Below, piece after piece: positions 34,752-35,342 of a stretch of DNA of 43,401 nucleotides. Source of the stretch: Acidobacteriota bacterium (lineage in GTDB: Bacteria > Acidobacteriota > Terriglobia > Bryobacterales > Bryobacteraceae); contig JACRKW010000075.1 of the NCBI GenBank assembly GCA_016215215.1, positions 1 to 43,401 of the forward strand, given 5' to 3'. The position numbers and the translations under genes were made by a program. Numbering within the stretch: the stretch's first letter is position 1; each line of letters opens with the position of its first letter. Under the pieces are notes generated by a model that saw only the letters and a list, made by a program, of their open reading frames with translations, made no database searches and had not been told where the DNA came from.

Positions 34752-34780
34752 TTGACAGACCGCCCAACCTCGATTAGGAT
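34752..34780 (+). promoter_or_regulatory. Near-consensus sigma-70 promoter of the structured RNA
   Basis: TTGACA at 34752-34757 (perfect -35), a 17-base spacer and TAGGAT at 34775-34780 (-10). Predicted start is A34787, immediately before the 5' stem of the RNA. This is the best sigma-70 promoter I see in the window. Confidence 0.75.
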
Positions 34781-34817
34781 GAGGCCATCACTGAAGAAAG
34801 GAGGTGATCCAGCAACA

Positions 34818-34862
34818 ATGAGAACTGGTAGTTATCACACGCGTGAGGTGGTCGACTGCTAA
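34818..34862 (+). CDS. 14-residue peptide ORF inside the structured RNA
   Basis: ATG 34818 to TAA 34862 encodes MRTGSYHTREVVDC. It is preceded by an exceptional ribosome-binding segment whose AGGAGG core ends 13 bases before the ATG, a long spacing. The peptide is polar and ends in cysteine; it has no signal or membrane segment. It could be a functional small protein or a leader peptide whose translation changes RNA folding. Coding status rests on the ribosome-binding segment and promoter only. Confidence 0.5.
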   Translation: MRTGSYHTREVVDC

Positions 34863-34974
34863 AGCTCGTTCTGGTCACTCTCTGGCCCATCTTCAGTGAA
34901 GGGCCGAGATTGACATGCGCCGGCCATCGAAGCGCATTCCTCAGGCAGCAGGCCTGAGAGAGACAGGCTACCGT

Positions 34975-35016
34975 AACGCCCCGCCGCCGGAGTCCGGCTG
35001 CGGGGCGTTTGTATTT
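34975..35016 (+). terminator. Strong intrinsic terminator/attenuator upstream of rpmE
   Basis: Outer stem AACGCCCCGC (34975-34984) with GCGGGGCGTT (35000-35009), one mismatch, inner stem GCCGG (34986-34990) with CCGGC (34994-34998), and a T-rich tail TTTGTATTT (35008-35016). It ends the structured RNA or, if bypassed, gates transcription into rpmE. Confidence 0.85.
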
Positions 35017-35090: not shown

Positions 35091-35342
35091 ATGAAAGCCG
35101 GCATCCATCCCGCCTACAGCGAAATCAGTGTGATCTGCGCCTGCGGTCACAACTTCAAGACGCGCTCCACGCATAAGGGCGACATCCGCGTGGAGATCTG
35201 CTCCAACTGCCACCCGTTCTTTACGGGACGCCAGAAGCTGGTGGACACCGAGGGCCGTGTGGACCGCTTTAACAAGCAGGTGCTGCGTTCCAATGCCCTG
35301 AAGGCCAAACGCGCCGGCAGCAAAGCCCAGCCTGTAGCCTAA
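35091..35342 (+). CDS. rpmE: Large-subunit ribosomal protein L31 (zinc-binding type)
   Basis: An 83-residue protein with the L31 signature [12 protein letters not shown], cysteines 16, 18, 37 and 40 (CACG and [10 protein letters not shown]) and [12 protein letters not shown]. All four zinc ligands are present, so this is the C+ form. The basic C-terminal tail ([10 protein letters not shown]) is ordinary. A TATACT -10-like box is at 35061-35066 but no convincing -35 accompanies it, so transcription may partly come through the upstream structured RNA. AAGGA lies 13 bases before the ATG. Confidence 0.96.

Follow-up and report, generated by a model that had tools for sequence, protein, structure and literature searches.

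The window (the whole stretch of DNA that was analyzed, 43,401 nt from an Acidobacteriota genome of the order Bryobacterales) contains a region flanked by a minus-strand MFS-like gene, so labelled from its composition, and by rpmE (L31) at 35091-35342. The following features were identified between these two genes.

34752..34780, plus strand: near-consensus sigma70-type promoter, TTGACA-17-TAGGAT; the positions of TTGAC and TAnnAT are kept in homologues
about 34786..35015, plus strand: predicted stand-alone transcript of ~230 nt; 5' end from the -10 element and conservation, 3' end from the terminator
34788..34797, plus strand: helix A, 5' strand, whose core CACTG (34789-34793) hardly varies within the family
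34796..34813, plus strand: extended Shine-Dalgarno (SD) sequence GAAAGGAGGTGATCCAGC (~18 nt), complementary to the acidobacterial 16S rRNA 3' tail
34818..34862, plus strand: 14-codon ORF MRTGSYHTREVVDC, ATG to TAA; conservation of start, stop and frame
34845..34850, plus strand: GAGGTG, codons E-V, an SD-like hexamer inside the ORF, separated from the stop codon by exactly 9 nt
34845..34853, plus strand: helix C, 5' strand, within the ORF; covariation and partner swap; pairing reaches upstream to about 34840
34871..34883, plus strand: SD-hiding strand CTGGTCACTCTCT; genus-specific, not conserved family-wide
34884..34888, plus strand: helix B, 5' strand GGCCC; covariation and partner-swap test
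34890..34899, plus strand: helix A, 3' strand; core CAGTG (34894-34898); sits in the loop of hairpin B
34901..34905, plus strand: helix B, 3' strand GGGCC; covariation and partner-swap test
34921..34934, plus strand: helix C, 3' strand CGGCCATCGAAGCG; covariation; pairs at about 34921-34930
34966..34973, plus strand: GGCTACCG, conserved, immediately 5' of the terminator
34976..35016, plus strand: intrinsic terminator, GC-rich hairpin followed by TTTGTATTT; conserved in homologues, hairpin present in the full-length fold

The promoter is the sole promoter-like site within 1 kb, where 0.2 would be expected, and the CACTG strand of helix A is the extreme 5' end of the predicted transcript. No competing antiterminator was seen in the full-length fold, in which the terminator hairpin forms. 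The downstream gene rpmE has a promoter-like -10 of its own, TATACT. It follows the RNA in 74 of 115 loci and is not in reach in the other 41, and the other neighbours, judged from protein starts by inspection, include tsaD-like and dCMP deaminase-like genes and a Rieske/cytochrome b-like pair. The RNA gene is judged to be autonomous, and not a leader of rpmE, because the neighbours change while the RNA, the ORF and the terminator stay. The segment 34788-34905 is read as belonging to the 5' half of this stand-alone RNA of ~230 nt, with no regulated gene after it. A first-pass annotation of this DNA had compared the arrangement to an erm-type attenuator, a comparison contradicted by the intrinsic terminator, the separate -10 of rpmE and the variable neighbours.

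The 16S rRNA tail complement and the short ORF

In the leader, AGAAAGGAGGUGAUCCAGC is the complement of the 3' end of acidobacterial 16S rRNA. The 16S tail was taken from an antisense 16S match in a genome of the same order (L035) and not from the window's own assembly, which is incomplete. With the whole leader counted, the leader-16S duplex has an energy of -39.0 kcal/mol in the window and a median of -35.5 kcal/mol in the family, compared with a median of -13.5 kcal/mol for the genes of the window, which served as the yardstick of SD strength. The pairing potential with the 16S tail is 15-20 bp, G.U pairs included, and lies far above that of ordinary genes. Most relatives carry GUGGUCC in place of GUGAUCC, and since the 16S partner of the altered base is U, pairing is retained as G.U. 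Family f8, which is large and belongs to the same class, has one extra base in its SD (GGAGGATGATCC) and hence a bulged helix. The RNA looks built to engage ribosomes.

An ORF follows the SD in all 175 distinct copies, and its start codon is ATG in 169 and GTG in 6; for one copy, L245, the automated start assignment was wrong, and GTG there gives VLDGQCTVSEVATS. ORF length in the family ranges from 11 to 22 codons and N-terminal similarity is low. The stop codons interchange (TAG in 66, TGA in 60 and TAA in 49 copies), and the distance from ATG to GAGGTG is a multiple of three in 160 of 162 copies, over many lengths. The remaining two frames are open across the ORF in just 24 and 5 of 174 copies. 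Because stops interchange and the ATG-GAGGTG distances stay multiples of three, the ORF is taken to be under selection for translation. As had been proposed from the window's sequence, the short ORF does belong with the strong ribosome-binding segment.

In 161 of 175 copies exactly 9 nt separate GAGGTG from the stop codon, and the hexamer shows almost no synonymous variation. For example, the Glu codon at -5 is GAG in 173 of 174 copies and in 86 of 86 clusters (85% identity), while GAA accounts for 47% of the Glu codons in the window. Because GAG and GTG are nearly without synonymous change and the 9-nt distance to the stop is fixed, the GAGGTG bases are evidently constrained as RNA also. In an alignment of 51 diverse sequences (A1), the partner strand of helix C alternates between C and U opposite the G residues of GAGGTG and the ORF strand is unchanged; a constraint that goes beyond helix C is suggested. 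The distance from GAGGUG to the last sense codon is 6 nt, and because this spacing lies in the typical SD-start range, the natural reading is that GAGGUG would pair with the 16S tail at termination. Ribosome pausing at internal SD sites has been reported for Caulobacter (PMC4117421), and the same study reports translation of two RNAs formerly taken for ncRNAs. The pairing energy of the internal SD has a median of -14.5 kcal/mol versus -9.6 kcal/mol at ordinary gene ends, which is only a moderate difference, and the invariance of GAGGUG could instead stem from helix C and the peptide. In one copy (L026, position about 1524) GAGGTG is out of frame with its ATG and stands 8 nt before the stop; this frame shift fits a constraint at the RNA level and could alternatively be a sequencing error.

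The C-terminus of the peptide shows a pattern of residue properties, with a small last residue in 160 of 174 copies, an acidic residue at -2 in 148 of 174 and a consensus end of R/S-E-V-A-D/E-small residue. This pattern leaves room for a function of the peptide.

Helices A, B and C

The minimum-energy fold of the 118-nt segment has an energy of -47.8 kcal/mol (z -4.7), and none of 200 dinucleotide shuffles was as good; in this model the region is folded beyond chance. The fold contains a 10-bp outer stem and the SD-hiding helix. The sequences and pairings named in the first-pass annotation are present in the window at the coordinates it gives, where TCACTGAAGA and TCTTCAGTGA form a perfect 10-bp stem and GGCCC and GGGCC a perfect 5-bp stem.

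Unguided RNAalifold on A1 recovers helices B and C, and with the helix A core entered as a pseudoknot 93.5% of the cells in A1 are paired. Double changes occur in 59 cells versus 15.9 in shuffles, and the signal is lost when the partners are slid. Swapping strands between species weakens both helix B (-12.3 kcal/mol native, -9.2 swapped) and helix C (-25.4 kcal/mol native, -21.0 swapped), by many times the s.d. of the swapped means (0.34 and 0.31, respectively). The helix C duplex of the window itself has an energy of -19.6 kcal/mol. Covariation argues strongly for helices B and C. Support for helix A is mainly conservation because its core is nearly invariant, with a few A-U to G-C changes; an exact downstream complement of the first five bases is found in 111 of 119 sequences versus about 14 by chance.

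The stems proposed earlier are thus real conserved structure: covariation is strong in B, and in A the CACTG/CAGTG core is near-invariant. Their supposed mutual exclusion is not upheld. Because the 3' strand of A lies in the loop of B and both helices are conserved, the simplest reading is that A and B likely coexist as a pseudoknot or loop-strand kiss; competition with B could arise only in the window's genus, where A is lengthened to 8-10 bp. Nor does an exchange of A for B switch the SD: when fold B was forced, the energy was -45.1 kcal/mol, a small difference of 2.7, the SD-hiding helix was unchanged and the SD was equally paired. The SD-hiding helix is present in the minimum-energy fold of the window, but it is not conserved family-wide (52.3% of cells paired versus 52.0% in shuffles), and homologues keep the SD while lacking the pairing and any covariation, which argues against its role as a switch. 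A third pairing, between the SD region and the ORF, exists in sequence but is weak (-6.7 kcal/mol). The expectation holds that the fold is necessarily disturbed when a ribosome occupies the ORF.

Two other pairings were considered and set aside. A hairpin between CACTG and the SD, drawn by RNAalifold (columns 2-7/19-24), shows almost no variation, and the CACTG/CAGTG pairing is preferred. Pairing of the SD with a downstream GGACC in other genera, inspected by eye in alignments, does not track the change between GATCC and GGTCC in the SD.

Distribution and relation to known RNAs

Homologues were sought by BLAST in 60 relatives, by a pattern scan of 84,980 species genomes and with a covariance model (R1), all of which recover the RNA. 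R1 matches 143 of 150 genomes of the Bryobacterales, nearly all with a single copy, and 65 of 396 genomes in an even sample of Acidobacteriota at E 0.01 or better. When the loci were read one by one, copies proved genuine in another family of the window's class, in several further families of the phylum and in other classes; among the weakest matches, a few are antisense 16S or doubtful. For the copies in distant classes, probable homology rests on the SD, the ORF end and the layout more than on full-length alignment.

Several copies have features of their own. A metagenome record titled Bordetella parapertussis (L110) carries the Bryobacterales RNA and is probably mislabelled. Copies outside Bryobacterales (L205, L213, L219, L243 and similar) share AATCYCAACAG followed by ACCG before the terminator. 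The search for a second site of this 3' motif in the genomes gave nothing consistent, and CAATCYCAACAG was rejected as an rRNA antisense seed on that account. In family f8 (L201, L208-L218, L243-L274) the ORF is of the type MKIDS...REVTEA, and its end ACTGAGGC is able to pair with GCCTCAGGT just 5' of the terminator.

In Rfam 15 there were no matches at gathering score for the window and 12 diverse homologous loci. The only full-length weak matches (E 0.24-0.8) were CC2171 (RF01867; window 13.8 bits, E 0.62, gathering 75) and Ms_IGR-5 (RF02471; window 14.4 bits, E 0.24, gathering 45). These two match weakly because both have such an SD near the 5' end, and membership in either was rejected as the scores are under threshold and carried by the SD string. 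Nothing matching was found in the literature on acidobacterial sRNAs. The Solibacter-1 candidate motif (Weinberg 2010) is listed for Solibacter usitatus only (PMC2864571).

CC2171, a Caulobacter/alphaproteobacterial sRNA, is the nearest Rfam family in architecture. It is also stand-alone and intergenic, with a terminator and a leader GAAAGGAGGUGAUCCAG complementary to the 16S tail, and the window has the same succession of 16S-complementary leader, start codon and short ORF; this likeness is one of architecture and not of homology. CC2171 differs in its peptide (MSHC..., MSS...), in its structure and in being without GAGGTG-N9-stop. Homology is not demonstrable because the reverse search with R1 sees mainly the SD. 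In every fetched copy of CC2171 with the SD located (L224-L242, about position 1510), a start codon stands 13-14 nt after AAGGAGG and opens an ORF of 18-35 codons. CC2171, annotated as an sRNA, thus probably codes for protein. A contig labelled Burkholderiales (L055:2612-2780, fetched as L225) holds a CC2171-like RNA (33.7 bits, E 1.3e-5) with the leader CACTGAAAGGAGGTGATCCAGTG and a GTG-started ORF. Ms_IGR-5, an sRNA of Actinobacteria, likewise has a consensus leader GGAAGGAGGUGGUCC near its 5' end and a terminator-like 3' hairpin, but aligns poorly beyond the SD.

Other known systems share part of the layout. The dual-function sRNAs (SgrS/SgrT, RNAIII, SR1, PhrS) are likewise discrete small RNAs with a short translated ORF (PMC5521070), but their base-pairing targets or proteins are known. 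The window RNA resembles them in having a short ORF that appears selected for translation. No dual-function sRNA is known to carry a complement of the entire 16S tail or to have another SD next to its stop codon. Attenuators of the erm type and leader peptides also place an SD inside alternative pairings and have a short ORF; here the transcript carries no regulated gene, the SD-hiding helix is unconserved and the terminator is stand-alone, and mutually exclusive stems that expose or hide the SD were not conserved across the homologues. The tmRNA (RF00023) is a stable structured RNA with a tiny ORF that ends in structure, whereas the window RNA is without a tRNA-like part and has its own SD and start codon. 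ARAGORN and Rfam gave no tmRNA match in the window, and tmRNA identity was rejected since the true tmRNA was found elsewhere in the same genome (164 bits). Lastly, extended SD initiation in Staphylococcus aureus also involves SD-aSD pairing longer than canonical, with two extra bp on many mRNAs (PMC13009471), compared with 15-20 bp on one RNA here.

Interpretation and significance

The reading favored here, tentatively and at slightly less than even confidence, is that the RNA is a stand-alone, translated, ribosome-engaging structured mini-messenger RNA of Acidobacteriota, perhaps acting as a translation-gated riboregulator. It would be made from its own strong promoter and end at its own terminator. 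The leader would pair with essentially the whole free 16S 3' tail and load the 30S subunit on the ORF of 11-22 codons, the end of which would serve both as one strand of the long-range helix C and as a second SD-like hexamer. This GAGGUG, 9 nt before the stop, would pair with the same 16S tail as the ribosome terminates. A ribosome on the ORF would force helix C open and tend to be retained at the stop codon; in the absence of ribosomes the RNA would close, its 5' end anchored in the hairpin B loop. As a riboregulator, its shape, its stability or a trans-acting 3' part may depend on ribosome engagement. Comparison of the homologues shows the layout of a stand-alone gene, selection of the translation type, helices B and C, the near-invariance of A, the 16S complement and GAGGUG-N9-stop; capture, translation and structure appear well supported by it, and it is a reasonable inference that the second SD would hold the ribosome at the stop.

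The locus could instead be a small-protein gene whose product is the peptide, with the extended SD and the structure serving only to tune its level. This is rather unlikely. The conserved frame, the interchange of stops and the retained properties of the C-terminal residues are as expected for such a gene, peptides are encoded by many bacterial sRNAs (PMC5521070), and the analogous CC2171 copies likewise have fixed starts and short ORFs. However, the products measure 11-22 aa and resemble one another little at the N-terminus, residues are conserved where RNA pairing is conserved too, the Glu and Val codons are nearly without synonymous variation, and the covarying long-range structure extends past the ORF.

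A role as a decoy that sequesters 30S subunits, titrating or parking them through the 16S-tail complement with translation as a by-product, is quite improbable. It would account for a pairing potential far beyond that of ordinary genes, for the second SD at the stop and for the single-copy, housekeeping-like distribution. A pure decoy would have no need of an in-frame ORF with kept start and stop codons, and since ribosomes normally far outnumber one transcript, very high expression would be needed. Ranked last among the peptide-gene, decoy and cis-leader explanations, and slightly less probable than the decoy, is a cis-acting leader or attenuator of the downstream gene (rpmE in the window), which is close to the earlier idea. 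The frequent presence of rpmE downstream and the series of SD, ORF and terminator resemble such an attenuator, but 41 loci have no rpmE in reach and others have differing neighbours, the terminator hairpin forms with no competing antiterminator seen, rpmE has its own -10 and the family does not keep the SD-hiding helix. That the locus is a remnant of 16S rRNA, antisense or degraded, or resembles an SD by chance, is a negligible prospect: the string is the reverse complement of the 16S 3' end, and the weak model matches L269 and L275-L277 (other classes) are antisense 16S, but the identity ends at the tail complement, a promoter, ORF, covarying helices and terminator are present, and in many related genomes the 15-mer occurs at two separate places of which the 16S one continues as 16S. 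The covariation, the ORF conservation and the presence in 143 of 150 genomes refute it.

The mini-messenger reading may be carried further, to a class of ribosome-engagement sensor RNAs that read out free 30S subunits or translation status; this is speculative and somewhat less likely than the small-protein gene. In such a sensor the saturating SD would capture a ribosome, the ORF would carry it through the helix C strand and the second SD would park it at the stop. In unrelated bacteria, CC2171 and possibly Ms_IGR-5 may either have reached this layout by convergence or have it in common with the window RNA.

The RNA is present as a single copy in about 95% of the sampled genomes of its order and can be traced across a major soil phylum, and because it is kept in this way it likely does something basic. 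Its layout is a natural test of SD pairing at its limit, both at initiation and at termination. CC2171 has this layout too and is catalogued as non-coding, which suggests that some known sRNAs are misclassified mini-messengers.
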